From Dysidea avara (lineage: Eukaryota > Porifera > Demospongiae > Dictyoceratida > Dysideidae), in contig NC_089276.1 in NCBI RefSeq assembly GCF_963678975.1, positions 18,977,272 through 19,041,271 on the forward strand: DNA of 64,000 bases, read 5' to 3'. A program made the position numbers and the translations under genes. The notes under the pieces were generated by a model that saw only the letters and a program-made list of their open reading frames with translations, did not search any database and was not told where the DNA came from. The first letter of the stretch is position 1. Each line of letters opens with the position of its first letter. Of this stretch, positions 19,701 through 59,280 are shown piece after piece.

Positions 19701-22376
19701 AAGAATAATTGTGAAATGGTCTCCAATCCATAACTAAAATGCAAGCAACACAAATTAAGAGTGCACAATGTGTGTTCTATTAGAGTTGCAGTTTTAGTTA
19801 AGAGCAAAAAGTTGACTAAATGACCCTTGTAAAATATTCAACTATGCTAAATATACATCATCTCCTTTCGACAGTAACAATAAATACAATAACTGATCTT
19901 TCTGCAATGCTCATAGGTGCTATTTCTCTATGCAGCAATGACCCCACCCTATAAACACACATTTGTAATTTATGTGTACAACACACCTAAACACACACAC
20001 AACACACAAACACACTCCAGCAGTAGCAGCACATGAACTGGGTTATTTGAATTCATCTATGCAATGCACTAATAATTCATGTACAGTAGATATGCAAATT
20101 TGTGCAGTAGTGTGTGCACATGCACACAGGGGCATAGCCAGAACCCGGGCCACCCGGGCCCAGGCTCAGGCATCAATAATTTGAGATACTCTAATAGAGC
20201 AGTCAGATCGAGATACTCTAATAAATCAGTCACAGTATTCAGAGCAGTGTAGATGTAGTTATAAATAAGGAGGTGTAGTTAGTGGAGGGGAGATTAGGGG
20301 CGTAGCCGGGGGTGTTCGGAATATGGTTCGGACGACCCCCCCCCCCCCCCCCCCCCCCGGCAGAATTCTTTAAAACTAAAAATCACATCAAATCTTACAA
20401 CCCAGGAGCTCCCTGGTTGTTACTTTGCACACTAGCACTTCTCTGTACTACTCTTGAGGGTCGCATTGCATTAATGCTGAACTATTGCAAATCATCGAGA
20501 TCTACTGCATCACGTGATCAGTAGTGCACGTGATTCATGGTGGAAATGGCAAAGGACTGTTGACTGATTGAGGCAGACATACTACAAGGCAGCAGCTACG
20601 ACAAACTCGAGTGGTCGTGTTATACATGTGTCAGGTGAGCACAAACTGTGAACAGTTAATGTATATTTATCTGATGAATGGTTTGTTTGTCACATGTTTC
20701 GGGCACGTGATGTCTTGAATATATTGGAGTACAAGCCAAGTCTACTGACCATCAACAGGAGGACCGACCGAGAATCATGTATACCTGGAAGAAGTATTGC
20801 CAACTAAGGGACTCGAGTGTGGAGGTTCCCGTGTTAGAAAAATTGAAGTTGGCTGTCTGGAAGTGAAGATTAAGTTAGTATAAGCTAGCTACAATAGGTT
20901 TATAGTTTCTATAAGCTGCATAAACAGCAGTGTGTAGGTTTTAGCTAGCTACATGCACAAACGGCACCTTTAATGTTGCTGCCTAAGGATCATTTTCGTT
21001 CAGACGTGGTCTAGGGGGAAGCACCTAGGTCTTCAACCCAAACATTCTACTTGACATCTGACACCTCCAAGAAAATCCTGGATACCCTCATAGAAATTCT
21101 GTCAGTAGGTAGTAACTTTTTGGTCTTGAGGTTACAGCTAGGCCCTGGCATCACCAAAAGCCTGGCTACGCCCCTGCATGCACGTACCTAAACTTCTTAG
21201 AGGATCCTTGTTCCCAACCCTCCACAGAGCTCACCTAGCAAAGAGTAACCCATCTACAAACCTATTTATTTGGCCAGGTAAGGAGAGTAGTAGGCACTAG
21301 GCAACAGACAATAGCAGGAATGTGGTCCGTGGAGGCAAAGGCTTTCCATCCTGTACTAAAGCGTGATCTTTAATTGGATCCTATAGTTGTTGGTTTTCAA
21401 GGAGAGAACCCTGACCTTAACTATGCATGTACTGCATGCAAACTATGACACCTGCAGACACATGTACACACTAGCATACAATCACAGTGCACGTGTACAT
21501 GCCACACAAACACATTAACTTACATGGCACCAAATGGTGAATTGGCAATAATGGTGACTTCTTTAATCTCACTACTGACTATGACCTCGTATTTTCTATC
21601 ACTATTGAGATCTTCACTATCATCTGATACAAGAACATTGATAGTGTTCAGTTCAACAGCCTTGTGGGTACACTGGCTGTGGTCGCCAATACTAAGTAAT
21701 AATTTATATTTCTCAACTGCAGTCTGAAGGACCTTAGAAGTTATGTTAACTTTAAACTTCACGTTACTACCAATATACATGGACACTTCTTCACTGGTTA
21801 ATGCTGAGGTGTGTCTGGGTAGTGGCCATATCAGAAAGGTATTAGTTTCTGGTGACTTGTCAAAGGAGATCTGCCATCCTGAGGTACCTACATGTACAAA
21901 GTAAAGCACAATGCAGAGCTGAATCAAATCACAAGAGGCAGTCACTTTCACACTGCTAGCTGAATCCAGGATCAAAGCTTTTGATCGTAACCTTGATCAC
22001 TTGATCCACCTACTATAGTCTACAGCCTTGATCACTTTGATAGTCACTTCGTAAAATTTCGCGTAGCATAAGTTTCGGAAAAACGATCGACGGATATCTT
22101 GATCGATTGACTCACTTCAAGAAAGCACATTGATTGTTTGATCCACTTTAAGAAAGCAAATCGATTGCTTGATTTGATTTTGCTCCCAGGATTCCAAGCA
22201 GTGGGATTCGCAGTGGATACAGTGACTGCTCGAGTACGTGACTGGCGCTTCAGAGAATATATATATATTAACTTACCTTCGTTACCTGGCAAAAAGTAAT
22301 AGTGCAAAAGAACTAGCAAAATAAGAATCGTGGCGGTAAAGCATCCAACTCTGATAATTCGGTACATTTTTCTCAT
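7763..22376 (-). CDS. GH20 beta-N-acetylhexosaminidase, 13 exons, 545 aa
   Basis: This enzyme should remove terminal beta-linked GlcNAc/GalNAc in the secretory or lysosomal pathway. Exons on the minus strand: 22376-22277, 21887-21524, 19733-19617, 19352-19233, 18029-17910, 17606-17519, about 17351-17234, 16479-16385, 16328-16255, 15338-15257, 8311-8144, 8082-7978 and 7849-7763. All have GT-AG borders and phases that join without a stop. The start gives a hydrophobic segment at residues about 9-29 (signal peptide or type II anchor). It is followed by the GH20 N-terminal domain (IWPLP motif), the barrel-start HRGLLLD, HFHLSD, VIPEIELPGHA, the catalytic pair in HMGSDETE, GWEEA, and C-terminal LGGELAMW and WPRG motifs. 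The catalytic Asp-Glu is kept, but the usual GGDE is GSDE and the usual HWH is HFH. The CRYSVES stretch after HLSD suggests a divergent GH20 subgroup rather than vertebrate HEXA/HEXB. Intron 10 (15256-8312) is about 7 kb of repeats. Confidence 0.9.
8410..8985 (+). repeat. Dispersed 0.6-kb repeat family, copy 1
   Basis: It lies in a hexosaminidase intron. It shares ordered blocks with the copies at 13165-13860 and 29905-30440: a CAGTATTGGTTAGG block, a TGTCCTC-TTTGTGTC block, a GTGTAA-GGGTGGAACATAGCTGA-type block, and a 3' block GATGCGGTATGCGCAAGTTC followed by ACCAGT. Open frames inside (up to 128 codons) are not conserved between copies, so I treat them as chance. Confidence 0.65.
9320..9920. 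mobile_element. Probable hAT-type MITE, about 600 bp
   Basis: The left end is CAGAGGCATATTTAGG at 9320 and the right end is its approximate complement, CCTGGATATGCCTCTG, ending at 9920. The immediate flanks share TATACT on both sides, which could be a shortened target duplication. There are no coding features. Confidence 0.55.
10090..10960. repeat. Repeat-derived sequence, partly the 0.6-kb family
   Basis: It opens with a GTAGTACTGTATAGCAGGGAT block like the termini at 13165 and 18090. It then shares AACAC-CATTT-ACACCACAA-AACAAACTC and CTTTTTGGGTTCTAAC blocks with the region at 18370-18445. Reading frames of 90-104 codons are not supported by splice structure or domain similarity. Confidence 0.45.
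11050..11190 (-). mobile_element. tRNA-derived SINE with the dispersed TATTAGAG motif
   Basis: On the minus strand, GGAGCGGTTCAGTGGTTAAGG (around 11157-11178) resembles a pol III A box, and GTTTGATCTC (11120-11129) resembles a B box, at tRNA-like spacing. About 30-40 bp further downstream comes GACTGCTTTATTAGAGTATC (about 11060-11080), a copy of the widely dispersed motif. I see no cloverleaf good enough for a functional tRNA, so a tRNA-headed SINE is the better call. A similar B-box-like GGTTTGAAACC followed by the same motif lies on the minus strand at about 36165-36245. Confidence 0.55.
11470..11745. repeat. Fold-back element, about 275 bp
   Basis: The inverted arms share AAATGGCTGCAATGATG, ATGCTAATAAACT, GTGAAATCAAAGGT and TCCACACAAAA blocks, with only about 15 bp between arms. 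The 119-codon minus-strand frame here runs through both arms and is an artefact of the repeat. A separate hairpin with GTGCCTGTGAGGAAA arms follows directly at about 11741-11803. Confidence 0.7.
11940..12165. repeat. Fold-back MITE family A, copy 1
   Basis: The arms contain GAGATGAATGATGGTATTAC, AGCATAGCTCAGTGGGAA and GTGAAAC blocks on the left and their complements on the right, closed by a short loop at about 12050. The same family is present at 18955-19200, and a half copy lies at 15530-15610. The outer ends are AT-rich TTTAAAAAT-type. Confidence 0.75.
12662..13085 (+). repeat. Dispersed repeat with paired TATTAGAG motifs
   Basis: It begins CAGGGGTGGATCCAGGATTT. It is homologous over about 400 bp to the region at 62045-62450. 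Shared blocks are AGAAGCTAAAGGTATTT, GATGTAGAGTGGTTTTAT, GTAGTT-AGCTA and a terminal pair of GACTG-TCTATTAGAGT motifs at 13023-13078. This shows that the motif pair can travel with a longer element whose 5' end is hAT-like. Confidence 0.65.
13165..13860 (+). repeat. Dispersed 0.6-kb repeat family, copy 2
   Basis: It opens with the palindromic ACAGTACAATAGTACTGTAT terminus and AGTAGGGACCACAAAGG. It continues through CAGTATTGGTTAGG, TGTCCTCCTTTGTGTCCCAT and GATGCGGTATGCGTGGGTTC followed by ACCAG. Both strands have broken frames of 67-82 codons that do not match a known protein. Confidence 0.65.
13845..14095. repeat. Fold-back element, about 250 bp
   Basis: The arms share CAAGCTGGAGTAGTGCAC, AACAATAAGAAGTGTTAC and ATAACACAT blocks in opposite orientation, with a loop at about 13965. 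The left end overlaps the 3' end of the 13165-13860 repeat, so the two may be parts of one larger insertion. Confidence 0.7.
14442..14663 (+). other. Unassigned 73-codon reading frame in a hexosaminidase intron
   Basis: An open frame with moderately protein-like composition is present (cysteine-containing, with a YEPIKVRI stretch). I do not recognise it, I see no paralogue in the window, and there are no convincing splice sites. It could be a relic of an insertion or chance. Confidence 0.2.
16855..17065. mobile_element. Decayed Tigger/pogo-type MITE with TATTAGAG motifs
   Basis: It is related to the well-defined element at 32680-32895. Shared blocks are GTTCAGATAA-TGAAG, CA-TGATTTATA, GACAAAATACTCTAATAGAA followed by CAGTC, and a right end GGTTCAGATAAGTGAGGA. 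The left terminus is too decayed to place exactly. Confidence 0.5.
18085..18480 (+). repeat. Dispersed 0.6-kb repeat family, partial copy
   Basis: It begins with ACAGTACAGTAGTACTGTTT and AGTAGGGATTGCCCAAAAG, and includes the CCATTTTACACCACAATAAC segment shared with about 10280. It sits in the intron upstream of exon 5 of the hexosaminidase. There is no supported coding. Confidence 0.5.
18955..19200. repeat. Fold-back MITE family A, copy 2
   Basis: This is the best-preserved copy of the family at 11940-12165. The arms carry ATGAAGTAGGGATCTATGCA, AAAAAGTAGTGAAACAAGAG, ATGAATGATGATATTACAGC and CTCAGTGGGAAAGTCCCTAC, with near-perfect complements, closing at about 19070. It lies 20 bp from the 3' end of hexosaminidase exon 4. 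Confidence 0.8.
20127..21176. mobile_element. Non-autonomous hAT-like element, 1,050 bp
   Basis: The left end is CAGGGGCATAGCCAG and the right end is CTGGCTACGCCCCTG, giving 15-bp inverted termini with one mismatch. The 8-bp flanks are CATGCACA (20119-20126) and CATGCACG (21177-21184), which is one mismatch. The interior holds a poly-C run at about 20337-20358 and a second GGGGCGTAGCCGG block near 20297, suggesting an older internal insertion. No transposase is seen. It lies in hexosaminidase intron 2. Confidence 0.8.
20337..20358 (+). repeat. Poly-C tract
   Basis: A run of about 22 C residues lies inside the hAT-like element at 20127-21176. Its length is likely to be unreliable in the assembly. 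Confidence 0.85.
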
Positions 22377-30800: not shown

Positions 30801-33800
30801 TCAAAATTTATGTACTAATATAAGCACATGCACAACTAGGAAGACCACCAAGAGAGGGGGGCAACTGGAGCGATTTCCCTGGGACCCGACCTGTTGGGGC
30901 CCCAGACAATGTTGAAACAGTGTATTTCACAATACTGTAGGCCCCGATTTCCTAGGGCCCCCTACAGTCTTTCGGTGGTCCTGATAATGCAAAAACTGCT
31001 AAAACTGATTCACTTAAGTTTCACTTCACTTTAATGTAGTTTTGATATTAATGATATTAAAACATTTCAAAAGTGCCAAGAGTAGTAAGCAAGCATATAG
31101 CTATGCCTAAGATTTTTCACCAAGTAAGATAAGATTTGAGGAAGTGTATATAGTGGCTCACACTGAAGTGGAAGGTGGTGATTGAGGATGCATGGTGGTG
31201 GAGGGACAATAATTGAAGACTGAAGACAAAATTACAGGGCAGTACTGGCTCCCTAATATAAACATCAACTGATAAAATGGGGGGTCATAGCCCCTGGCCT
31301 CTGTTTCCACCTCCTCTATGTATTAAGTATAGATACATAACTCATCAATGTTGTATGGATCTGAGGGTGCAGTCTTAAATATTGTGGAAACCATTCAAAA
31401 TAGTTGTTGAACCATAAACAAAGCAATCCAATATTCTACAAATTTGGACAATGTAAGTGGGTCTAATAAAATTTTCGTCAAAGTTGTGTTGTATATCATG
31501 TGGCTTCTATATTCAAAGCATTATAGCTACATGGGTCGGGTCATAAAACTATCTCATGAACTATGAGAACTACATGCAATGTGTGATATAGTTTGTAATC
31601 CCTTTCAGCTGGTATGTCGTCAAATCACAAGTTTGTCATATGCGAGTTACAAACAATGTTATACCAGCACTCAGTGCATGACCATGCAAATACGTATCAA
31701 AAACAAAATATTGTAAATCATTATAATACTTCTTTGGATCTCTATGCGTGTGTCACAAAACAGATAAACTTATGCATGATTTCCTACTGCTAATTCACAA
31801 GCAAACTAACAGCTTAATCATATAGCCTAAAATTCTGAGGATGCTTTGAATTGACTTAGCTATTAATTAAAGATATGAACAAATCATGATCCCACGATTG
31901 GGCCTATATCCCCAGGCTTTTCCTTTGATTATCCTTACAAAGGAGATAATGGCTTCAAAATTGGAGCCCCTTAATTCTTTATAGTTGTGTATGTATAATA
32001 AGAGATGTGTGTATACCAATAATTTGTTTTATTATTCACTGTGATCCACAGCTTCACTCAGACCAGAACTTCGAGATTTAGTAGAACATGTTACTCCAAA
32101 GTATGCCATTTACTGGAGAGAAATAGGAATACTCATTGGTGTCCATATTCAGGAAATACTGGTCATTGAGCATGGACATCCTACCATGCTTAAAGTGTGC
32201 TGCAATAAAATGTTTGTGGAGTGGCTTGAGTGTGATAAACATGCCAGTTGGGGACAACTACTTGCTGCCATTGATTCTCCTGCAGTATCAAAACCCTTTC
32301 GTATTATGCCCAACATTGGTAAGTGGCAGCATATCTCATTCATGTAATATTTTTGAGACAAAAGGTGATGGAATGCCAGCATGATAATAATGATATTTCT
32401 ACAAGCATTATTTATGTGTTTACAGAACAGCCATGCACTGCATTAGTTTATTAATATTAAAAGGAAAATGCATGCACACACTTGTCCATTAGTGTAGCAG
32501 CTTCATAGTGTTCATTATATTGTAGTTCTCTGGCACAGTATTACTAGTCATTCCATTTGCATTCATTATGTGAAACTGGTATATTATACAGATCTGTTGC
32601 CAAGTAATTACATCACGAGAACATTTATTATTGTCCATTACATAAATAGTCTACTCTTAGTCTCTCACTAGCAGAGGTACAGTAGGACCTCCATTATCCG
32701 AACACCTGTGAACCAGCTGAATCACAAAAGTGTTCAGATAAGTGAATTGTTCGGATAAATGAAGCACATTGATTTATATACAGAGCTCTGTTGAACTACT
32801 TTAATAGAGCATACACCTGTTGACAAAATACCCTAATAGAACAGTCACCAATACTGTTCGGATAATCGAGGGTTCAGATAATCGAGGTCCTACTGTATAT
32901 GTATATGTCAAATTAGTCCTGGTAGACTATGTATTCATTGTGGTTTTATTGCAAGTATTTACATAAGTAATGTACCATTGTGTAGACGTTCATTCATCAG
33001 TGGATGGCTGCAACAGACAGAAATTGAGTAGTGCCACAAGTAAAGCTGTAATATCATTAAAAGCTCGATACTGTAACCAACCTCCCCCATGTGCTAATGA
33101 TTTTCCTGAGCTGCCAGTCTTACAGTACGTTCAATTAGCTTTAGTTCATAAAAAACATGTTAAGAATGAGCAACATCACTTGGATGATTTTACTAAGCAT
33201 GCACTCTTAAGAGAACGAGATGTTATTCATAACATAAAAGAAAAGCTGCACAGCATTGAAGAAATATTTTATCACAATAATAAACCATGTCCATCTCGGA
33301 TACTAATAGAAGGCGGTCCGGGGGTTGGCAAAAGCACACTGGTATATAAAATTTGCCAGGAATGGTCCAGAGGAGAACTCTTGAAAGAATTTCAGGTGGT
33401 ATTGCTATTGATGTTAAGAAGTTTCTGGAATATGTCTCTAAAAGATGCCATACAATCATTACTTGGCAGTGAAGTATGTTCAGAGTTGTATGAGTCACTA
33501 GGATCAAATGTGATGTTGATATTAGATGGGTATGATGAAATGAGTGCTTCTTGGCAAGCTGATCCATTCTTAACTAATCTACTGAATAGCCATGAGCTTC
33601 CTAATGCAACACTTGTCATAGCATGCAGACCACATGCATGTGTACATTTGAAGGGCTTTGAGAGGAGAATAGAGGTACTCGGTTTTGATAAGGAGCAGAT
33701 ACAAGAGTTTGTCAAAAATTATATTTCTGAGGATACCAGTCTATCTGCAAAGGAGTTCCTCAAGAAACTGGAGATGAATCCCTACATTTCTGGCTTATTG

Positions 33801-36800
33801 CATATCCCAATGTGTCTGGCAATGATTATTGAAATCTATCAGCATGACAGGGCTTTGCCAGCCAATCCCAATCTTACTGAGCTATTAAAAACTTTTGTAA
33901 CCTGCATGATTGTAAGGCAGTACGAGAAATATCCCAAAGCTGAAAAACATTGCGACCATGATAAACATCAGATAGTTTCTGCACTGTTACCTGACGTTCC
34001 CAAAGAAGCTGTTGACATGGTATTCCTTCTCAGTAAAGTAGCATATCATGCTTTCTTTAAGTGGCAGGGTGTGAGAAACAATGATGGGTCACTGAAAAGT
34101 CCAAAAATCATATTTTCTGAAAAGGAATTGAATCAGTGTGGTTTTACAACTATTGATGGAAATGGATTTTTCCAAACTTTCCAAGTGCATAAACTACCAA
34201 GGAGCACTACTACCTATAACTTCATCAATCTGACTGTCCAAGAATTTTTCTGTGCATTGTATATATGTTTATTGCCACCTGATGTGCAGCACACGATAAT
34301 TGAAACCCATTTTGAGGTTTTCCCTTACATGTTTTGTTACCTTTACGGTCTTTGTAAACCATTGCCATCCAGTATGTTACAGTTTGTTTGTTCAAAATTA
34401 ACAGATCTAGAATATGCCAACACTAATAAAAACATTGCCGTATTCAACTGTGCCATAAAGTGTATCTGTGAGTCTTCAAATTTCAACACTAAAGAAAATA
34501 TATCATCATTGAAAATAAACATGAGCTTCCAAGTTTTATTCGCTTATGACTGTTGGTGTATTTCATACTTACTGTGTCATTTTCCAGTATTGCAGTTAAA
34601 GTTATGGGTGTGCAGTATTGGAGATGATGGAGCAGAGCAGTTAGTCAAGCACATTGATTCTATTGGTAATATAAAGGTGTTGGATCTACATTGGAACAAC
34701 TTTACTAGTGATGGGATTGAACATATTATAAAGATTGTGAATTTCAGTAAGTTTAATAAATGCATAAAGCAACAGGTCAGTCTGTTTTGAAACCAGTTCA
34801 CCAGTTTTAAAACAGGAAGCATATGCAGAGTCTTTTCAATGCTTACTGTTATAGCTAAATTTTCTCAATGCTTGTTATAGTAGCTGTGAGATTCCAAAAA
34901 ATAAAATAGGACAGATGATGCAGTCACACCATGATGACAGCGAAGCTTTTAGATTGAAAATGTTTTCATTATGTCTATTTACCAGTAAATTAAGTAACTA
35001 CTCGCAGTTGTTAAGACATAAAACGTGACTGTTCTATTAGAGTAATTGACTGCTTTATTAGAGTTACTCTAATAAAGCAGTCAATTATGTCTTGATTGTT
35101 TGCTACAAGGTGATACAAGCATTAATCAATAAAATTGGAGGAGGAAAGGGCATGTCCCCCCATTTTATTGTCTAGTTATTACGGTTTTATAAACCTTGTA
35201 ACAAGAGGTTGTTGTATCTGGCAATAATTAAATTGCAGTTTCACAGTCGATGTACAGCTCCACATAGCTTATTCAAACACTTGCATTTGTCCACTCACTG
35301 GGGTTAGCTAGCTACACATAGCTAGCTAGCTATCCATGCATGCAAAGCTTTCATGGGGGGCTGTTGTAGCTAATGAAATTGATTACAGGAAAGGAGAGCG
35401 CAGTTTTGAAATAGGTCAATTGCCATTTCAAAACCGTATAATCTCCTAGCATGGACTTATAAATAATTAATTTTTATCGCACAGAGTAGCCATATGTATA
35501 TGTTTGAATTTCATTGTTTATGGAGTTACATGCTCCCTTGTCCAAAGGATTCAAAACGTATGATTAACGTATGCAGCTCTCTTGTTAAAAAATAATAAAT
35601 ACTGGCACACCTTGTAGGAAGAGATTGGTAGTTGGGAATATTCGGGTAGCTTGTTACTGCTTCACGTCCCTCACGCTTAAAATCCAAACAAAATTTCATG
35701 CAAAATAAAGAGCCAAGATATTCTAATACAACAGTCAAATCTTCTAATGGAACAGTCACCACATGTAACATTTTTAAAATCCTCAAAATTTCTGATTACA
35801 GTATATAAGCCATGTCTTTGCATGCCATAACCATATGACACAAGTTTACTTCAGTCATAGCTGAACTAGCTATACTCACCACTGTTACACATCCCTATAA
35901 CTCATGGTTATACTGTTTGTGCAGAAAACTACTCTGTACTAAGAATTTCAACATTAAATTGCTTATTGCTGCTTGCTCCATATATCTAATATGATCATGG
36001 TGTACCCCTTGCCAAACCTCTCCTGTGTAATTACATTAAATAGGATGGTTGCTGGTAGCAATCCTAATAAATGGTTCCTGAATAGAGAACTTCCACTTAT
36101 AAAGTAGAGGTGAACAGCTGTGACAGCAGTGTTAGGTGTGAAGGTCCCTGTAAAATTGTGGAGCCGAGATACTCCAATAAAACAGTCACTACAGGGTAAA
36201 AGTGTATGAAAAATGTCAAAAAAAAGGTCACCAGGTTTCAAACCACTTGTTTGGTTTTTTGATTTAACATAACTGTATAATTAGTCATTACTCTTTTGTT
36301 TCAAAAGACGATGCTATGATGATTAGTCTATGTACTCACCAAATTTCAAGTTATTCTGATAATAAGTTTACCCTGTAGCAGTGACAAAAGTTTGATCATT
36401 TTTACATGAATACACGTCCATTGAATACGTGGTAAACTCACCAAACTGAGTAAATGAAATTTAAAATTTTTACATGTCCTTGAGTTATAGTGAATTTAAT
36501 CATATTTTGGTATGTGGCCAGCATGCAAAGCTATGATACAAAAATGGTTTGGAGAAGGGACCATGGAGCTATATATGAATGCTTGAAAATCGTCTTTCTG
36601 TCAATATACACATGATGTGCTTTCTTGGCCACATAACATAAAATTATCATGATTATGTCTTGATCTTCATAGTATGTGATATGTATCAATGGTAGCAATG
36701 TGACTTGTACTTACCTCTTTGATGATTTTTAAACATACAGACATCAGATCATTAGCAAAAATAGATCTGGGACGTAATCCATTCAAAGACGAAGGCATTG

Positions 36801-37237
36801 AGCTACTAATCAATGCTCTCCACTGTTGTGATGCTGTTGTAGAAGAACTATCGGTGTGGCAGTGTGAAATTTCATCAAAAGGAGCAAAGCATATAGCTAC
36901 AATGCTAGAGACTAACAAGACTTTAAGGACTCTCAAAATGGATGGGAACAATATTGGTGATGAAGGAACTGTTGCCTTAGCCAGTGTACTCAGCAAAAGC
37001 ATGCTTTTAATACTACATCTCAATCACTGCGGTTTTAGCTATCATGGGGCAGAGTCACTAGTTAACAATTTAAAGACCAGTTGCAATAAAAGTATGATGG
37101 TGCTCTACTTGCAAAAAAATGCTATCACATTGCGTGGAGCTCGGTTAATGGCATCACTAGCATGTGACGTGAAAGAGATACAAATTGATGAAGAATATAT
37201 GGACGACGATGAAATAAAAGATGCATATAAGCGATAA
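27898..37237 (+). CDS. NLR immune receptor: DEATH-NACHT-LRR, 4 exons, 859 aa
   Basis: This is a probable intracellular innate-immune sensor. Exons are 27898-27952, 32052-32318, 32986-34746 and 36741-37237, all with GT-AG borders and matching phases (1-1-1). Residues about 20-107 form a DEATH-like fold, with YWREIGILIGVH, a MFVEWLE helix and SWGQLLAAI. The NACHT ATPase has Walker A GGPGVGKST at about 217-225 and Walker B VMLILDGYDE at about 283-292, followed by LVIACRPHA. A helical region follows to about residue 640, then leucine-rich repeats of the 28-residue ribonuclease-inhibitor type (LDLHWNN, IDLGRNPFKDEG, LKMDGNNIGDEG) to the end. The large third exon with the whole NACHT and split LRRs fits metazoan NLRs; the DEATH-NACHT-LRR order is known in sponges. 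The first exon is chosen on phase and donor quality and is the least certain part. Introns 1 and 2 carry MITEs. Confidence 0.88.
27973..28167. mobile_element. MITE in NLR intron 1, about 195 bp
   Basis: The left end GTTACCGTATGCGTAAAAA and the right end TTTTTACGCACGGTATACGG followed by TAAC are inverted copies with a small insertion. The interior has three GAAAATTTTC-type blocks in both orientations. It begins 20 bp after the exon 1 donor. There is no coding. Confidence 0.65.
29905..30440 (+). repeat. Dispersed 0.6-kb repeat family, copy in NLR intron 1
   Basis: It starts ACAGTACGGTATAGTGGGGAT followed by CATAAAGG. It includes a GGCCTTCAGACAAACATAA block and ends with GATGCGGGTTCACCAGTC-like sequence, in the same order as at 8410-8985 and 13165-13860. 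Confidence 0.6.
30671..30751. repeat. Perfect 81-bp palindrome
   Basis: The left arm 30671-30710 (starting AGGTGAGGGCTACAAAATCA) and the right arm 30712-30751 are exact reverse complements, 40 bp each, with a single T at the centre. It lies in intron 1 of the NLR gene. Such a loop-free palindrome would extrude as a cruciform and is usually unstable, so it is either recent or an assembly artefact. Confidence 0.9.
31265..31450 (+). repeat. Repeat copy, inverted relative to 25985-26160
   Basis: See the partner copy at 25985-26160 for the shared blocks. Here it is not followed by the degenerate coding sequence that accompanies the other copy. Confidence 0.65.
32680..32895. mobile_element. Tigger/pogo-type MITE, 216 bp, TA target duplication
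   Basis: The left end is CAGTAGGACCTCCATTATCC and the right end is its complement, GATAATCGAGGTCCTACTG, flanked by TA on both sides (32678-32679 and 32896-32897). CAGTAG-ACCTC-TTATCCG termini with TA duplications are typical of the Tigger/pogo branch of Tc1/mariner. The centre holds two copies of the dispersed motif (CTTTAATAGAGCATAC and CCCTAATAGAACAGTCAC). It sits in NLR intron 2, about 90 bp upstream of the NACHT exon. Confidence 0.8.
35025..35092. repeat. Cluster of three TATTAGAG motifs with a 43-bp palindrome
   Basis: A direct copy (GACTGTTCTATTAGAGTAAT) is followed by a direct and an inverted copy head to head. Positions 35044-35086 form 21-bp arms (AATTGACTGCTTTATTAGAGT) around a single T, a perfect palindrome apart from the centre. 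It is in NLR intron 3. Confidence 0.85.
36130..36260 (-). mobile_element. SINE-like fragment with a TATTAGAG-type motif
   Basis: On the minus strand a B-box-like GGTTTGAAACCTGG is followed by a T-rich run, a GACATTTTTCATACAC segment and then GACTGTTTTATTGGAGTATC. This is the same order as in the tRNA-headed SINE at 11050-11190. The A box is not recognisable. Confidence 0.45.
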
Positions 37238-39743
37238 CTTGATAGGTAGCAACTGTACTGTATTTTATTGAGCAGAATTTTAATCATTGTACTGAATCAT
37301 GTGAATACCAAAGTTCCTTTTCACAAGTTCAATGTTCTCTACATCTCCCGTCAAGAATTTTTTTTTTTTTTTTTTTGGGGGGGCGGGGGATGTTTTGAGG
37401 TGCTGAATGAAGCACACCCCTTCAAAAAAATTTTCTATTTGCTAGCTAGAAGCTACAGGTTGTAACTGCATGTTATGCATAGACAATGAAAAGAGTAAGG
37501 GAAGGATTAATTAATTTTTTTCTTAAGTATCAATGAGAGATAGTTAAAGTTATATTTAGGAGTAATGATCACATTATTGAGGCTGCTAAAAATCAAAATA
37601 CTCTAATAGAACACCTTAGGGTTACACTACCCTAGGACCTACCCTTAGAACACCTTTTTCATTTTAACTTGATACTTGGGTTCCTAACTTCCTGCAGTGA
37701 AATCGCTTTGTAAGATTTTGAGTGAACAATTAAGGTTATAGAGGATCTGGAGGGCTGCCCCCATGAAAACCCTTGTCACCAGAAATTCTGTACTTGATCA
37801 ATTTGAGCTCCACATACTTAAATTTTATACATGTGTTATTAAATTTCATTGCTTGTTTGTGAAGTTATTTCATGTAGGGCTTTTCAACAATTATAAAGTA
37901 CTAAATTAACATTAAAGAAATACCACAGTACGAGACAGACTTCCCTACCATACTATAGTTATATGAACCAGTTACCTCTTTTCTTAGCCCCTCACTACAA
38001 ACTTTTGCTCTTGCTAGCACTCCCCCTTGTGAAATCCTGGATTTGCCCCTGTATTAATACCCTCAGGCAAACATGCTGACCCTCAGGCACGTACACCACT
38101 TCACATCAAGGGCATATATATATATATCCATAGGCAATCATAACACATACATGATGGCATTATTAGAATCAAGAGTAGTGTGGCTGCTCCATTAGAGTAT
38201 CTCTATCCAGTAGTTTGCAGCACTAGCATCTCTCTTCTCTGTCTGAAAACCAAGTTATCACTCTCATGCATAATAGTCCTTCACCCTCATACACCTGCCC
38301 ACACAACCATCATGTACTCAACCACAAGCATGTACATACACCCAATCATTTACATGCATGTTCTCAACCACATTTGTAGGTTTGTACGTGCACATGCATT
38401 CACCAACAGCATGCACGTTCTCACCACCCCATGCACGCATACGTACCTACCTCATGCAGTCACACATGCATGTACCTACCACCTACTCTCATGCACATGC
38501 ATTCACCTTACCCTCATGCATGCACAACCACTCACATTCCCACCCATTCTCATGGTATAGACAACATTATGTGCAACAAAGATGTAGAGACATGTAGGTC
38601 TGTGGTATTAACTAGACTATAGTTTTAAATATTACAAGCATGAGCTCCTTTATTACCAGATATTTATACTTTTCACCTTTTACAGTCAAGCTGCATCTGC
38701 AAACAGCCAGTGAAATCAGCCATGGCAATATACAGTACTTAAGTGATGTACAATTGTACATGGAATGCTATGAAATGAAGAAAGAGTGATACAATTACTG
38801 GGACACGCAAGTAGTTTGGTTTGAAGCTCATACTGTATACCAGGGAACAAAATTGACAACAAATTTTGTGTAATGAAAATGAAAAAACCAGACCATAACT
38901 TTGATATTGTAACCTAAGCAAAACTAGAAGCCATGCAATACAGCCTGGAATTGGAAGAATTCCCTAATGATGTACATGTAATCTAATAATTCTGCCAATT
39001 GCAAAACAGCAAAGCTGGTAAGAGTGTGGTATTAAAACAAAACAATGGCAAACAAGTATAGATGTTGTGCCACTTCTAAATAGCAGTTAGTGAGTGAGGC
39101 CTACAAAGAATCCAGTGTAAGCATTGTAAAGTCAAAGATAGTGGCCAGAGAATGGATGCAATGATGTGATCAGTGTTGATAATGACAGCAAGTCATTATT
39201 AAAACCAGGAGCCGCAATGCGCCTTCGGTGTTTATAAGCTCCTATTAAAACTTAGCATCATTATAGCTATTTTGGCAGCCAACTCTGATTTCAATAGTGT
39301 CTGCAGAATGGAACATATACTGTAGGTAATCTGACACTTACATGTATGCAGCAACGTTATAGAAAACAGCAATGAACACTATAAAAGGACTAAATATGGC
39401 ATGGTAAATTGGTAATAACACAGCTATATGAGCAATAAAGTCTTTAATAAAAAGTACGCAAATTTAGTATTTGCCAACATGTCAGGTCCATTCACATAAT
39501 AGAATATTCAAATGGTAAGTTTACCAGATTTCAGACTCCCCAACAACTATACACATAATTAAAATTCTGGGTAATATAAAGTGATAGCAAATTTTCAGTG
39601 AAGAAAAGTCAGCAAACTTGTGAGATAAAAGAGCATTGAATGAGGGTAATGTTCTATAATTAGAGTTGCTTGTTCTTTTAATTTTGTATCTTTTCACCAC
39701 CATAGTAGTACGTAAAAAATAATATTCTCTAATATATACAAAA
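37238..39743. other. Intergenic, repeats only
   Basis: Between the NLR stop and the end of the downstream C9orf72-like gene I see no supported exon. Features are a T15-G7 homopolymer pair at about 37363-37385, one TATTAGAG motif at about 37594, a GATTTGCCCCTG hAT-like terminus near 38040, an ATGCA-rich tract, and AT-rich unique sequence. Confidence 0.5.
38240..38545 (+). repeat. CATGCA/ACC-rich low-complexity tract
   Basis: Irregular repeats of CATGCA, CATGTAC, TTCAC-A and CTACC blocks run for about 300 bp without a fixed period. All three plus-strand frames are open here because of composition (His/Thr/Cys-rich), so the frames of 63-126 codons are not taken as genes. Confidence 0.6.
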
Positions 39744-42700
39744 TCAGCTGCATTGAAGAGCACTGAGATACTCTACCACTGGAATACTGTAATCTATTGG
39801 TAAAACTTTGGAAATTATTGATGGATCATCTTTACCAGCCAAACCAAGTAGCAACCTCAAATCACTACCATTATTTATATACAAGTCTTCCATTAGTTGC
39901 ACTAGATCAATTCTGCCAATAGATGGTGTCCTATAGAAACCATCATACTAAATGTGTTTCATTGTAATTCAGTAGATCTTACCACGTATCATTCACATAC
40001 TGGCTCAGTGTGCAGGCTTTGTTATGGAGTACCGTCATGTAGTGTGATATGTAATGTTCTCTGGTACAGTTATGGTGTGATAATGATGAGACCTGTGGTG
40101 GAATATATGAACTTTAAGTGTTGGGTAGTGAACAGATTGTGTAGTGTTTCCTCAGGCATAGCCTGGTCAGTGCAAATTTGAAATATTATAAAGCCTGAGA
40201 GCCAAGTCATGGCATATATTATATTTACTGGGTTGAATGGCTAATATTTACCTAGTCTCAAATAAAAGCTATTGTGGTTACTATTCAATTTGTTCACTAT
40301 TAATATTACCAAATACTATCAAAGCTCCCTTGTTCACTATTAATAATACTACAAGATAGTCCTATTCATTCTCACCATAAAGATAAGTAGTTAACTCCTT
40401 AGAATAACACTTTTATAATAATGTTAATTCAAGGGGCAGTACATTTAAGGAACCGCAATTAAATGTGGCAACTATTATATTTGAGATGTGACATTTGTAT
40501 TTGAGAAATGAGCAGTCATTCACTATCAGGATTTAGCATATAGTATAACATCACACCTCATCACTACAAACAGTACTCACCATAGACAGTAGATAATGTA
40601 TAAGTGGAGCAGACTCGAGCATAATAGGTAAACATTTTCTGTAAGAAAAGAAAGTGTGAATAAACACACAGTACAATTTGATATACATAAATTTAACAAC
40701 AATTTAGGGTAAGTGCAACTTGAAGGATGTATGTGATTTATACTAATATTATGTGGTAAGCTCTTCAAAATGGTGTTCAGATCAGAATACTAGACAAGTA
40801 GACATCTACTCCATGATACATCTACTTCATGATACATCTACTCCATGATACACAGGATAAATCAGAAAAAGAACAACCTTTTACAAGTTAGGTCTACTTG
40901 ATCCATCTCAGCTCTCTTTAGTAATCCCAGAGACACAGCCAAACTTTGTTGTAGTGGAGTAACTACAGGATTAACTATTTCCCTTACCTAATACACACAA
41001 GTGAAGTATTACCAAAACATGTCTGACATAGACCTTACTTCTAATCTGGTGACATCAATGATGATGGGCCTGTATGCCTCACTAGTTAGTTCCACTAGGT
41101 TGGTTGGTAAATAGTTTCCTTGCTCTTCTTCCTTTATAGAACAAAGTTATTCACAATCTAAACACTAAAGGTTGTTTACATATAAGAATCCCTGCACATA
41201 CAGGCCTGCTTGGTAACCAAGTGTGGTCAAGTCTTGATCTGGTGTTATCATTAGTGACAACCTTCGCTCGTTGGTAGACATAAAACATGATAAAGTTCTT
41301 ATCATCTGTACAAGGAATATACTGATATAATTTAGTGTGGTAGTGCTAAATAGTAGGGATCACAAAGGGTTTTGCCATTATAAAAGACCCTCTATTATCT
41401 CACCCTCACTTACCCAAAATTGGAAATGACTGTTCTAATAGAGTATTTTGAGTACAAATGTATGTTCTATTAGAGTATTTCTGAAAATTAATGTATGTTC
41501 TATTAGAGTATTTCTAAAATTAATGTATGAGCTTCAGTTATCTGTACTTATGAAAACTGTCACCACTACCTAAGCCACATTAGTTTGGATAACTGAGGGT
41601 CTGCTGTACCTTCACGACAATTAGGCGGTATTCATTGGATACAATCCCTAATATGTCTTGAAAACAATTAACTCTAATAAGTATCTGTAAAGTTTTAAAT
41701 TTAACAAAATTTTCCAATGACTGACTCATTGACTACTCTACATCTTCAGACAAGTGTAATTTTATGCCATGACCTTGTATTTTCAGTTAGATGTAACTTA
41801 ATTAGTCATCATATCAATATAGGTTGGATTTTACACCTATGCCTCAACACCACAATAGTAGAAAAAGATAGATTCACCTTTGAAAAAATAACTACAAAAA
41901 AAATGATAAATACAATATTACAAGCAGTAAGCTACACGGTCAATGCTTGACATGATTGTATAAAATGTTTTTAAGTAAAAAAGTTTCGTGCATACAAAAT
42001 TATATTCTATAACAGAAAAAGAGCAAACTACATGTACAGTAAATGTCTCTGCCCATATTTCTCAAATGTTGCTCATTTATCGATATATAGAGAACTGTTA
42101 GTATGTACATGTTGAGCTGGATCCTCAAAAACATTTAATAATTCATGGGTGGAATTTCACATGATCTTAAAATTCGGCTCATTTGTCGCATTGCTTGACC
42201 TACTAAAATTATTTCAAAATCATTTCGTTCAAATGCCTGACACAATATTTATGGCCAATCAAAATTTTCACCATACATTTCCTATGGGGAAGCCATAAAC
42301 TATCCATTACAGCCCTTTTCCCAAGCTTGTATTTAAGCCAAACCACACATGTCTGTTGTTGACACTTTGTTGACACTTTTGTCGTCACCACTAGTCATCT
42401 GATTGGCTGAGATGTTGATTTTCTTGAGAAAAAAGTCAACTTTTTACGTTTTTTAAGATTCAGCTCAACTTATATATATACTATAATTGTTTCTCAATGC
42501 TATGAAACACACCACCCAGATTACCTTCTGAATTTTTTCCAACTTCCTCCCTATTACAATGGCATAACCACTTTGATATAAAAATGCTGTGATGACTCTA
42601 AAACAAATAACATATCAAATTCACACGTGTGTTGTATGTGTTGTATGTGTTGTGTGTGTTGTATGAAGACTATCAAATATAAACTGTTGTGCATGGTTGT

Positions 42701-45700
42701 CCTTACCTTTCAAGAAAATGAATCATTCCATAAGATTTATTATTTAATTTAGACCCAAGGTAAGTCTCATTTACCTGTAACACAACAATTACCAAGAGTT
42801 ACTACATTACTACCATATGTAAATTTTGTACTGATCACACAAAAATTGAGGGTAAAAATCCAAAATCACTGGTGACAACAACCTGTAATAATTTATTGAA
42901 GAATTAAATAACTAGTAACAATTCATGAGTAAACTTTCATGAATGGAACACCGATCGTGAAATTTTCTTCCTCGAAAATCACTCGCTAATGGTAGTATTC
43001 TACAAATCCATTGTATCTACTGTAGTTACACTAGCTATTAGAAACACAATACTCTATTGAAATGTAAAATTGAAGTGTTGCTATCACTATCATTAGTGGT
43101 TTACAGTAATACCAGCACCACAATGTTTTCCATAATTATACGTGTAGTACCTTTGATTTCTTTATCTACACATGATAAGTTGCAGTCTAAGGACACAGCT
43201 ACAGTGTAACCATAGAGATGTATTAAAATTGTAAGGAAAATTTAGACAAGCTAGTAAGGATCACCACAGTGAAAAGTGCTTAAACAAAGGGAATCACCTG
43301 AAGTGCAAATTTAATTCCTACTTTATCCAATACAATCAACAATGAATCATTATGCTTAGGAATTAAATTTGCACTCCATGTGATGATCCTCATTGTTTTA
43401 AGCACTTTTCATTGTAATGATCCTACTAGTTTGTAAAATTCCTAACTTTCCTTATACTTGTCTGTAACTAACCTTCAGTTACACCACATCAAAGGAAAGA
43501 AAGGTGTCAAACATGTGAGGCTATTATTGTACAAAATGTGTCCTATGTTGATCACTAATAAGCAATGTAACTGTATCGCTCAGTTGTTGAATACGTATGT
43601 TCTGCCCGTTACACAGTGCTACACATGGAGAACAATACATAAAGCTAGCTTACAGCTGCAAGTGCTGGTAGGAGTGGCGCACAAATTTCAGATGATTTCT
43701 GTTTTATTCTCAAGTGATAGATGGCATGAAACCATTAAAGTGTTACCGCGAATTGACACCTTGCACTGAAAGCAAGAAAATGGAACACAAAGGAGGACAA
43801 AGGTAAGTCCATGAAGCATGCATTGTATGTACAGCGCAGAGACTGAAATTATGGTCAGACATCTGCCATTTTCGGACCATTTTTGGGTGTCTGAACATTT
43901 TAAGAAAGTTATTGTACAAAGCTATTAAGTACAGTATGTCTGACCAGATAACTAGATTTGTCAGATCATTTCCAAAACATAAATTTTAGGCCCTAGCCTG
44001 TTACAGTATGCCAAAAGTCACTTGTTGGCTGATGCAATGGACAGTGATACTAAAATCCAGTAGCCATAGGCCATTATTGAGCTATGCTTGTCTGAAGGCA
44101 TCAGTTAGTTAGTAGAAATTCCACTAAATACAAAATATTGGAACATCTTATTGGGTTGCACTGAAGGCACTTTTGGGCCAACATGCATTAAAGATATTGT
44201 GAGGCTGGTTTCTGGTCAGTATATTTTCGTAGGAAGGCACAAACCTTCATGACCCATACTGTATGATATGTCACCATAGCAAAACATTTGTTAGCATTAT
44301 CCAGAATTTTAGTAGCTCGATAATAGGTGACTGTTCAATTAGAGTATTTTATCATTCAGTATGCTCTATTAGAGTAACTGAGAAATGCAATTCTATATTG
44401 TGTGCAATTATTATATAAACAACAAAACAAATATACAACTAACTGTAAACAAATCTGGGTCAGGAACACTGCTATATCTGATGCCAGTGGCTAGTTTTAC
44501 AAATCCAATAAAGTCTTTTGGTTTGTGGAGCAAGAACTGAAGTTTCTGCATCAGTGACAGTTCAGGTACATCGACCACATCTTCTTGAATGATGAAATTT
44601 TTGATCACTGGATCAAGAAATGAGATGGTCGTCTTGTACTTTGGCTGTCAGTAAACCACAACACTATAATTGTTACATTCACAGTGTGTAAAAAAAGCAT
44701 ATACCTACGAGATATATTAACAAGATTCTATTGTGCCTAAGTATGGATGGACACAATCTACTTGCCAACTACAGTTACTTATATGCTTTAATTTGTTAGA
44801 GCAAGATCTTACCCTGTCTATTTAATTTATAAGATTGATGCACGATTATTGTAAAAGTGGCAACCTAAAAAACCAAACCTGTATAACACCATGAACACAG
44901 AACGTCTTGATCTGTGTTTAGTTCAGACTAGCAAGCTATTCCTTCTGATTACCCTGTCATGATAAACAGACTTATCCTTCTCATAGGTACTAGGTTCTGT
45001 CCAATTATTGTAACAGTAAAAAATACTATTAGACAATCACTATAGATGCTCACTACAAGGCCATCATTACTATATTGCTTGTTCAGTATCCCTGGGTGTA
45101 GCATAAACAGGTTCAGGTAGAAGGTGATTGAGTATACACTTGAGTATACACTTGACCATGCATGTGATCGATTTATTAGAGTGTCTCTATCTTGAAAGGT
45201 ACAAGGGTGTGAAAGAAGAGTGGATGGTGTAACCTATAATTTCATTACTTGGCTTTTCTGCTTCACCTCATGCCATATTTGTCTCTTGATCACACCTCCA
45301 GCTATATTTTCCATATTGTACTCACTACAGTAGTATTTAATTCCTACTTCAGCCATATACAGAATATAGCCATGACTGAAGTAGGGATGTGTGATAAGAA
45401 TAGGGACTAAAACAATCATGTGATACTTAGAATATATCAGTTTACAGACCAACAGAATTTTTTTAACTTGACAAAAAAGCCATGAAGGTGGTGGATGGGA
45501 AACAGGAAAGTGACCTTAGTTTCCTGGCTTGATTATACCTAACTGATTTTTCCAAGAAGTGAGGCTGGTTTTTTGGTGATACTTTTGGGCAGGGAAGTCC
45601 AAGCCTCCATTATCCCTACTATACAGTACTACTATACAGTATGTACTATGGCACCGTTCAAATGCAATGTCATCTCGCAAGAGTGCAAGTGATTTAAAAA

Positions 45701-47452
45701 CTTGCTAATTAAAGAGTGTGGCACTTGTTTCACTTGCGAGTATTCATCCCATTTTGTTTGGGATGAGTATTCGCTAGCAAAATAGGTGCCACACCCTTTA
45801 ATTAGTGAGTTTTTTTTAATCACTCACACTCTCACAAGATGACGTTGCATTTGAGCAGTACTATGATTCCTTGTTTTCTGTCACTGCCTTGGTTTAATTG
45901 ATTATTTTGGGAGGCACTGAACTGACTGAACTCGGCACTGAACTGACTGAACTCGGCACTGAATGACCAAGTGTTAAAATAAATGCAAATACTATGCACA
46001 TAAACATGCTATATTTGGCTCGAGACCATACCAAAGTGCTATATTTTCCGTAGTGCATGAGTATATGTGGTGCTTTAATTGGTTTAATGTATGAATCCAG
46101 AGTTGTAATCAAAAAGGAGGTAACCGTTTACTACAGTTACCTGGAACGCCATGATGGCCATGATGGCAGTGAGAAAACTAGCTCTAGTACCTTCTTGTGA
46201 CTAGTAGAAGGTTAATTTGTATCAAGTTATCACACAATTTGTGATCCATCAGAACCAGAATTTACTTAGTAGTGCGAGGAGAACAGCTGAGGAAGGCTAG
46301 CTATGGTGTCCATGAGTAATGGAGAGTTTGTACAGCTACTGTTTCTAATCATTACTCATGAGTGTGGCCTTTGTTACTTGCTATGGTAATGTTGGTGATA
46401 GCTTTGTTAGTGGGGGTAGTTGTGGTCATCCCAGTGATTCTATGGATTGTGTTTATGGTTGTGGTATACTTTTCCCTTTATACCTAATATGGTAAATTAG
46501 TACAGCTGCAGGTATAGATGTGATCTTCCTTGCTTCTTACTCACATACAAAATTTCCCTTGTACATGTATGGCAGCCGATCTAATTTATTTTGCAATAGA
46601 ATTGGATTGTAATTACATGTCATTCCCACCCTTAGGGCTTGAGAATTTCCTTGTATCATCAACAAGTAACAAATCCCTCCACCTCTATATAGTTTGGCCT
46701 CAACAAACTGCTGTTGTCAATTCCAGAGGTGTATAGCTGGACTCATAGGAGAGGGCAGGACAATAATTGACACATAATTGCAGTGGAAATGATGTTATAG
46801 CCAGATTATGTTCTAACAAAAGCTAACATCAATTCTAATAGAGTTGTCAGGTGTGAACAACCAGGTTATCTTCAAAACTATCTAACAATAAATAAATAAC
46901 GTGCCATTCATTGGTATGTAATGCTTGGGAAATACAGCAATGTGTAAACAGCTATGATACTATTATAGCTACTTAGTCTATATATACCTGTTTAGCTAAT
47001 CTTGTCAAATTGGGTATCAAATTGAACTTCAAGATAGCCTTCATCTTATTCACGAGTAGTGTGTGTCTGCTTAGCCATTCAGTTAGTTCACTCAATGGCA
47101 GCACGATACTGAGCGAGAACAAATCCGGATAGTTATTATGACTAGACGGCACGGAAAACAGGAAAGCTATTGCAATGATATTCTTGTTACTGAGACAGTA
47201 AAACATTGATTCCAGGTCTACCAGCGCTCTGGACGCTTCCGCTACCAAAGAGTGGTTGCTGACGAAATCGAGGGATTCTTTGGGTACAGTGTAGTTATGT
47301 TTATTAGCAGGATGAGAGCTGCGCCATGTCCTCAACTTTCGTGTTCCCTCAACATTATCCCAAACTGCCAAAATGACAGCAGAAATATAAGAGTCACAGT
47401 CCAGGATAACTTCATCAGCGGTCTGAGCCATTTCCCCGGACTCATGTCCCAC
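39744..47452 (-). CDS. C9orf72-like DENN-family protein, copy B, 10 exons, 496 aa
   Basis: In animals C9orf72 partners SMCR8 and WDR41 in a complex regulating autophagy and lysosomal and small-GTPase signalling. Exons on the minus strand: 47452-46988, 44644-44444, 42774-42707, 42597-42525, 41305-41180, 41131-41039, 40987-40878, 40638-40581, 40092-39983 and 39930-39744. Phases join throughout; exon 7 uses a weak donor (GTTGTT), chosen because it keeps phase with exon 8. Family landmarks are AVWDNVEGTR near residue 30 (WDN-GPR in the family), LSNKNIIAIAFLF, LPLSELTEWLSRH, then NERRLSLM and LYVQGF, REHYISHYM-VLHNKA, and DLRLLLGLAGK near the C-terminus. The length matches human C9orf72 (481 aa). 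In copy B the conserved GPR after WDN reads GTR. The start lies about 120 bp downstream of copy C's stop, head to tail. Intron 1 (46987-44645) is about 2.3 kb of repeats. Confidence 0.88.
40802..40855 (+). repeat. 18-bp tandem repeat, three units
   Basis: ACATCTACTCCATGAT is repeated three times, with one unit carrying TTCATG. It lies in intron 7 of copy B, about 20 bp downstream of exon 7. Confidence 0.7.
41430..41525 (+). repeat. Three TATTAGAG motifs, two in a 36-bp tandem
   Basis: GACTGTTCTAATAGAGTATT is followed by two direct copies of an AATGTATGTTCTATTAGAGT unit with a 36-bp period. It lies in intron 4 of copy B. It shows the motif amplifying locally as a minisatellite. Confidence 0.8.
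43257..43440. repeat. Fold-back element, about 180 bp
   Basis: The arms share AAAAGTGCTTAAA, GGATCA and GTGCAAATTTAATTCCTA-type blocks in opposite orientation, with a loop of about 30 bp at 43330. It is in intron 2 of copy B. Confidence 0.7.
43690..44285 (-). repeat. Dispersed 0.6-kb repeat family, minus-strand copy
   Basis: Read on the minus strand it opens CATACAGTATGGGTCATGAA followed by GG, continues with ACCAGAAACCAGCCTCAC, AAAGTGCCTTCAG and TGCCTTCAGACAAGCATA, and then a TGTCCTCCTTTGTG block. It is the counterpart of the copies at 13165 and 29905. The plus-strand frame at 43458-43769 overlaps it and is not supported. Confidence 0.6.
45645..45870. repeat. Fold-back element, about 225 bp
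   Basis: The arms share CAAATGCAA-GTCATCT, AGTGTG and GGTGTGGCAC/GTGCCACACC blocks plus GAGTATTC-CCCATTTTG at the centre, in opposite orientation. The left end abuts the palindromic ACAGTACTACTATACAGTAT terminus of the 0.6-kb repeat family. It is in intron 1 of copy B. Confidence 0.7.
45910..45965 (+). repeat. 25-bp tandem repeat, two units
   Basis: GGCACTGAACTGACTGAACTC is repeated twice with a partial third unit. It is intronic in copy B, just beyond the fold-back element. Confidence 0.75.
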
Positions 47453-47575
47453 AATATTTCATATGTAATTACAATTATTTCACAGATAATTAAAAATATA
47501 CTCAATTAAAAATTCAACGAACAAGAAATTTATCGGAGCACTGTATATGCAAAATATATAAAATTGTGATGTGTG

Positions 47576-53164
<5,589 letters not shown>

Positions 53165-54091: not shown

Positions 54092-55723
<1,632 letters not shown>

Positions 55724-57776: not shown

Positions 57777-58408
57777 GAAGGAACACTTGAGATATTTATT
57801 GTACTGTTATTAGTTATGTGTGTGAAACAATTAGAAATCTGAAATGCATTCACTAGTTTGTGTACCGCATTTGCAATACTTTTCAAGTTTTGAGAAAACT
57901 TTCCAACCTTGTCTCCATTGTACTTGTGGTACATATGATAGTTTGTTCATTAAAAGTTTGTAAAAACTATTAGATTTGCAAAATGCATTGTTACACAACA
58001 GGTGTGTGTCTGTGTGTGCTATAAATACGCACATGAAATGGCCGGTAACAGCAATAGGTGTTACAGTAATAATGGCCATCCTTGTAGTAATATAATTACT
58101 TTGTAATTGGTGGCTGTACTTATTATAATTAATGGAAGAAGACAGAAAAATGAAAACATTTTATGGTAAACAGATGGATGGAAAACTTTAATTTGGTGAG
58201 CTATACCTCTACTAGCTGTTATATCAGAATGAGGGAGGACGTAATGTACAACACAAATTGTACTGTGAAGTATTACATGTTTCTGACTCCCTGTATTCAC
58301 AGGTCCCTAGTGGGATAATGTTCACAATAAGTATTGCATAATAAGACCTAGTTTTCTCACCTCAGGGCATCTCTTATTTCACTTTCATCCTACAGTACAA
58401 AGTTGACC
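57777..58408. other. Thioredoxin 3' flank and repeat spacer
   Basis: A possible poly(A) signal ATTAAA lies near 57948. The segment from about 58320 to 58408 resembles 63190-63250 (CAGGGCAT-TC, TACAGTACAAAGT), so it belongs to the duplicated unit carrying the thioredoxin pseudogenes. No exon is seen. Confidence 0.45.
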
Positions 58409-59280
58409 ATTCCTCACTTTCTGAAAACAAAGGTTTGGTGTTGCTACAAGTGTGTATATGTTGTGTCCCTCGATCATTACCACTTTGCTGTACTTTACTG
58501 TTACAGGAAGAGTTTACTGCTGCTTTGGCTGGAGCTGGTGACAAGTTAGTGGTTGTGGATTACACCGCTAGTTGGTGTGGTCCACGATTCGTTGTTCCAT
58601 TGTATTTGCTATTCAAGCTAGTGTACTTGAGCCCGTTAATATGCTTTGTCCTCCAATACAGTATTATATGTTGCTGAGGTTTTGTGGATATGTAAGGGAG
58701 TTTTGGTGTGCCCTCATAGTTTAAATTAACACAATTGAAAACTATTCAATGTGTGAGAAAGTGCTTTAATGCAGTATTGCTTTAGCCATCAATATGTGTA
58801 TGTATCTCATGTAACTTGCACTGGGTATTAAAAAGAGAGACCTGTTACTTTGTTAGATGTCAGTCTCACTAACATTATAATCATTGTAAAGGAGCTATAG
58901 ATTTTATACTGACATCAAAGAGCCTCAATCACATGGTTTAATACTGGTGAGGCTTGTTTACAATTTTCAAGCACCCATAGAGATGATTCAGTATTCCTTC
59001 CTGGTTTAATAAAACGTTATCTCCAGAGACACATCTGTACTCAGTATCAGTACCCCTTTCCTACTGTCTAGTCATGTTTGTGATTCCATGGATAAGGCTA
59101 TGGTTCAGGCGTACATGTGTGCGTGCTTGTGTGTTGTGTTGTGTGTACGTACGTGCGTGTGTGTGTGTGTGTACTGCATATCCTCCTTCCAAGTATTTTA
59201 TAGTAAAGAAAGTAATATTTTTTTTAAAATTTATTAGCACAAGTGCTGAAGGTTTGTACAAGTAGAAGGAAAATTTTGAA

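Follow-up and report, generated by a model that had tools for sequence, protein, structure and literature searches.

Tandem C9orf72-family genes and a related third copy in the genome of the sponge Dysidea avara

Work on C9orf72 treats it as a single-copy gene, loss or repeat expansion of which matters in ALS and frontotemporal dementia. The locus described here raises the question of whether a sponge genome holds several members of this family, and of what such copies might do. Single-copy status, which the earlier note on this DNA had given as the normal condition in animals, agrees with Zhang et al. and with a 2018 comparative study that describes vertebrates as lacking C9orf72 paralogs (PMC5822839), as far as the cited passages of these sources go. 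The titles and abstract openings of open-licence literature, among the matches listed, named no C9orf72 paralogs for sponges or other non-vertebrate animals. We analysed a stretch of 64,000 nucleotides (C5:18977272-19041271; hereafter the window, to whose positions all coordinates refer unless a contig is named) and searched the whole genome (550.8 Mb in 108 contigs).

As the earlier note had proposed, two genes of the same plan lie head to tail on the minus strand of the window; each has ten coding exons and an open frame, and their intron phases are equal. Copy C extends from 53164 to 47576 and has an open product of 511 aa. Its exons are located at 52691..53164 (474 bp, containing the ATG at 53164, a WDN-GPR motif and the match to Pfam PF15019), 52430..52639 (210 bp), 52208..52269 (62 bp), 51559..51631 (73 bp), 51365..51493 (129 bp), 51240..51320 (81 bp), 50475..50617 (143 bp), 50205..50265 (61 bp), 47856..47965 (110 bp, aligning with the SMCR8-binding helix of human C9orf72) and 47576..47768 (193 bp, ending in the stop codon TAG). 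The ATG is a putative start, because a splice-acceptor-like AG lies 30 bp upstream of it, as is also the case in the third gene described below. Copy B extends from 47431 to 39744 and has an open product of 489 aa, with exons at 46988..47431 (444 bp, containing the ATG at 47431 and a WDN-GTR motif), 44444..44644 (201 bp), 42707..42774 (68 bp), 42525..42597 (73 bp), 41180..41305 (126 bp), 41039..41131 (93 bp), 40878..40987 (110 bp), 40581..40638 (58 bp), 39983..40092 (110 bp) and 39744..39930 (187 bp, ending in TGA and followed 62 bp downstream by ATTAAA at 39682). The outer limits of 39744 and 53164 proposed previously proved exact, as they mark the final base of the copy B stop codon and the A of the copy C ATG, respectively. 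The spacing of about 120 bp had been underestimated, and the distance from the copy C stop to the copy B ATG is 144 bp (47432..47575).

All nine introns of each copy start with GT and end with AG; these ends were picked at such sites, and the models are tested instead by their frames, which remain open and similar. Intron phases (0,0,2,0,0,0,2,0,2) are common to both copies, and in the protein alignment six of the nine introns share a column, while the remaining three lie 1-3 columns apart. The same alignment displays the WDN-GPR and WDN-GTR versions of the motif that had been noticed before. Exon 4 (73 bp) and the penultimate exon 9 (110 bp) are indeed equal in length between the copies. The coding exons of human C9orf72 measure approximately 444, 60, 96, 65, 73, 117, 236, 58, 110 and 187 bp. 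Since lengths of 73 and 110 bp recur there, the lengths shared by copies B and C would be inherited from the ancestral gene and would not mark the duplication. A literature search for C9orf72 exon structure returned nothing on this subject among the matches listed.

Both proteins almost certainly belong to the C9orf72 family, and profile searches bore out this part of the earlier note. Matches to the Pfam C9orf72-like family (PF15019) scored 107 bits for copy C and 72.6 bits for copy B against a curated cut-off of 27; it was the sole family found for copy C and the sole one above its cut-off for copy B. Among solved structures, human C9orf72 (PDB 6lt0, 6v4u, 7mge, 7o2w) was the best match for both (copy C, E = 5.1e-45, 157.6 bits; copy B, E = 5.1e-24, 88.2 bits), whereas the other matches of copy C had E values of at least 0.26 and copy B had no other at E up to 10. 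The human match covers the longin and DENN regions of each protein (residues 25-146 and 209-496 of C; 6-135 and 199-470 of B), although identity to the human protein is only 25-28%. In a single alignment, identities were 183/480 (38.1%) for C and B, 128/457 (28.0%) for C and human, and 114/449 (25.4%) for B and human. Resemblance of B and C by chance is excluded by their BLASTP match (E = 1.6e-92). Exon structure and family are established for these two intact genes, which we attribute to the tandem duplication of an entire gene with its introns. Searches of viral contigs, with 125 pattern matches, and of prokaryote genomes, with 17, confirmed no further relative of C9orf72.

The cluster is larger than the pair that had been described, in that contig C5 carries three genes and two relics. 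A genome-wide Pfam search gave two matches, corresponding to exon 1 of copy C and exon 1 of a further copy, and missed copy B. Exon 1 of copy B as query matched three places in the genome (E up to 0.1), as did the exon 5 region of copy C (E up to 1). The C-terminal part of copy C gave 18 matches, all on the minus strand of C5, which by position belong to copy C (6), copy B (2), the third gene (6) and the relics (4); stray pieces of exons 2-4 may have been missed by these three queries. The third gene, D, lies outside the window on the minus strand, from C5 18868907 to 18812982 (56 kb), and begins approximately 148 kb beyond the end of copy B. A first reading of gene D as a 5' fragment was dropped when exons 4-10 were found further along. 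It has ten exons, GT at 9/9 donors, AG at 9/9 acceptors and 500 codons without a stop, and its exons 4 (73 bp) and 9 (110 bp) have the same lengths as in B and C. Copy C is its closest relative (430/499 protein residues identical, 86%). Gene D has no ATG at the start site of copy C, and it reads WD-YGPR where copy C reads WDNIYGPR, so that two loop residues are missing.

The two relics, near 18790 kb and 18970 kb of C5, look dead, as nothing beyond a shortened exon 7, exon 8 and the intervening intron was found. They are 90-96% identical to each other over five pieces and 80.5-88.6% identical to C or D, so the relic itself was copied. A 152-bp TG/CA array occupies 50656-50807 in intron 6 of copy C, and gene D and both relics have comparable CA arrays ahead of exon 7; the array was therefore probably copied along with the gene.

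An order of events can be proposed from these comparisons, with human as the only outgroup. Among the three sequences B, C and human, B and C are closer to each other than to the human protein, so that their duplication, which is old, is most simply placed after divergence from the human lineage. Gene D would then stem from a second, more recent duplication on the C side. Identity between C and D is patchy, amounting to 85.9% over codons 8-92 of exon 1, 99.0% over codons 93-158, 51/51 positions in intron 1 and 94.8% in exon 2. Codons 93-158 contain no synonymous changes, whereas dS is 0.28-0.34 for the opening part of exon 1 and for exons 3-10. When the 48 mismatches were shuffled over 707 ungapped sites, a run as long as the observed 141 bp of identity (52845-52705) was reached in 20 of 20000 trials; this procedure drops gapped columns and ignores uneven constraint. 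Nevertheless, constraint is an unlikely cause of the identity tract, given that intron 1 is identical and synonymous changes are absent. The simplest reading of the tract is a recent exchange of sequence between C and D, that is, putative gene conversion.

Comparison with contact residues of the human protein bears on what the copies might do. In the cited portions of the structural papers, human C9orf72 contacts Arf through W33, D34 and I71, and the W33/D34 double mutation almost abolishes Arf1 GAP activity (PMC8213707), while V82, F84, V86, L121, L125 and H128 contact SMCR8 (PMC8336837). The same six of these nine residues (W33, D34, F84, L121, L125 and H128) align as identical in B, C and D, as far as these published residue sets go. 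Thus, B and C both retain W33 and D34 at the Arf contact and four of the six residues of the SMCR8 contact core, but differ from human C9orf72 at I71 (Ala in both), V82 (T or S) and V86 (C in both). In the SMCR8-binding helix, 12/27 residues of C and 9/26 of B are identical to human.

The N-terminal part of human SMCR8 as query found one match in the genome (E up to 1), at C6:36201930-36202157 (4.7e-8, 30% identity). The match carries two stops, both outside the open frame of the exon, and the frame includes SARGYVR, which aligns by eye with the human stretch that holds the catalytic R147. Used as query in turn, this exon found only itself (E up to 10). The genome thus probably encodes one SMCR8 alongside several C9orf72 proteins, with both the identity and the copy number of SMCR8 judged from a single exon. 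Such a ratio suggests competition or subunit exchange.

We therefore favor the reading, with a probability of roughly 0.6, that the old tandem duplicates B and C, and later D, serve as alternative C9orf72 subunits for one SMCR8. Each copy would pair with the one SMCR8 detected, each pair would form a C9orf72-SMCR8 GTPase-activating complex, and the copies, as interchangeable subunits, would be distinguished by their regulation or by part of the surface that contacts the GTPase. Judged from their sequences, B and C are very probably intact, expressed genes. Membership in the C9orf72 family is plain from the searches above, whereas partnership with SMCR8 is something we infer from conserved residues, and we give even odds to B and C being alternative SMCR8 partners. 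A bolder and decidedly speculative extension, which we hold to be quite improbable, is that the cluster was kept moving by duplication and gene conversion, and that the single SMCR8 is contested by three products with different Arf-contact loops (WDN-GPR in C, WDN-GTR in B, WD-YGPR in D). One catalytic arginine would then serve several GTPase-activating complexes of different specificity, with D possibly acting as a non-activating brake.

Several other explanations would account for parts of these data. That B and C are an assembly artefact of one gene, which the earlier note had considered, is ruled out by their identity of only 38%, and we can practically dismiss an artefact or uncollapsed haplotype for the cluster as a whole: gene D is 92% identical to copy C over 775 bp of DNA, yet the two can be aligned only in pieces around exons, and the introns of D are far longer. 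An unlikely account is plain redundancy, in which duplicates were retained by dosage or drift and some are dying. The presumably dead relics with their shortened exon 7 fit this idea, as do the altered start and loop of gene D and a C-D dN/dS of 0.73 in exon 2. However, dN/dS between C and D is 0.32 overall (499 codons; bootstrap 0.23-0.45), with 0.38 for the opening part of exon 1, 0.14 across exons 3-7 and 0.29 across exons 8-10, where about 0.5 or more would be expected if one copy were free, and copy B remains fully open despite long divergence. Neofunctionalisation, with copy B outside the SMCR8 complex and paired with a different longin-DENN protein, for instance folliculin, seems more doubtful. 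It draws on the lower scores of copy B against human C9orf72 (88.2 against 157.6 bits), its P39T change near the Arf contact, Pfam Folliculin matches elsewhere in the genome (C7, from 21811340) and a faint FNIP_C match in copy B (E 0.036, 14.1 bits). FNIP and folliculin share a related longin-DENN domain plan, as outlined in the cited part of PMC3521125, but the FNIP_C score is below the cut-off of 25, copy C has no FNIP match, both copies exceed the C9orf72 cut-off, and copy B retains the same six contact residues as C. The earlier note had regarded copy B as the more diverged, which holds for its scores against human and Pfam but not for its rate: over 448 ungapped columns with human as outgroup, unique changes numbered 39 in C and 49 in B (chi2 1.14, not significant), so the lower scores do not show faster evolution of B.

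The short gap between the codons of C and B raises the further idea, which we consider very doubtful, that the two genes form one co-transcribed unit through read-through. In its favor, the 144 bp contain neither AATAAA nor ATTAAA, and the next AATAAA (47305) falls inside exon 1 of copy B, so the C and B transcripts may overlap. Against it, one of the eight forms of poly(A) signal sought, the variant GATAAA, does occur in the gap (47534). Moreover, there is no evident way to translate the second long frame of a joint transcript. Short gaps are normal in the compact genome of the sponge Amphimedon, where the cited passage gives a median intergenic distance of 587 bp and frequent overlap of gene starts and ends (PMC4773876), so spacing is weak evidence of co-transcription. 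A scan of the gap for bacterial-type promoters and terminators found none, which says little for an animal.

In place of these alternatives, we retain the reading of B, C and D as alternative C9orf72 subunits. The cluster adds one more case of a familiar type of event to a family described mostly as single-copy, and is otherwise an ordinary gene-family expansion. Its three genes differ from the condition of vertebrates, which lack C9orf72 paralogs in the cited account (PMC5822839), and resemble the lineage-specific, multi-copy C9orf72 families that arose by independent expansions in Entamoeba and Trichomonas according to the cited section of PMC3521125. Those are protists, likened here by description, whereas in the sponge the tandem pair is old and the third copy younger. 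By keeping some contact residues and changing others, natural paralogs such as these show where the protein tolerates change in a gene that is still retained. They also let one ask, from a case provided by nature, whether the GTPase specificity of the SMCR8 complex is determined by its C9orf72 subunit.

Other frames flank the tandem pair. Part of a plus-strand frame at 54151-54465, divergent from copy C, matches the small subunit of ribonucleotide reductase among solved structures (E 2e-10), and the frame has no Pfam match; it may share a bidirectional promoter with copy C. On the other side, a plus-strand frame with a NACHT domain (32967-34790; Pfam 1.9e-22) is followed by leucine-rich repeats (36704-37234, plus strand; 3e-16), and together they constitute an NLR-type receptor gene on the opposite strand, facing copy B. 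Pfam matches to thioredoxin (58345-58674, plus strand) and a beta-hexosaminidase-like family (21520-21996, minus strand) are weak and below cut-offs.

Elsewhere in the genome, the Folliculin family of Pfam matches the region C7:21804001-21844000 at 21811340, 21814195 and 21835325, with the same short frames repeated, which we take to be a folliculin gene with an incomplete second copy lying 21-24 kb downstream. Nine large contigs carry 21 scattered matches to mitochondrial cox1. One of these matches, at C8:25954946-25956247, is a long, nuclear-looking copy inside a large contig, with a presumptive nad1 frame after it on the same strand. In this cox1/nad1-like copy, arginine is encoded by AGA or AGG at all four sites examined, a usage at odds with bilaterian mitochondrial codes but in keeping with those of sponges and cnidarians.
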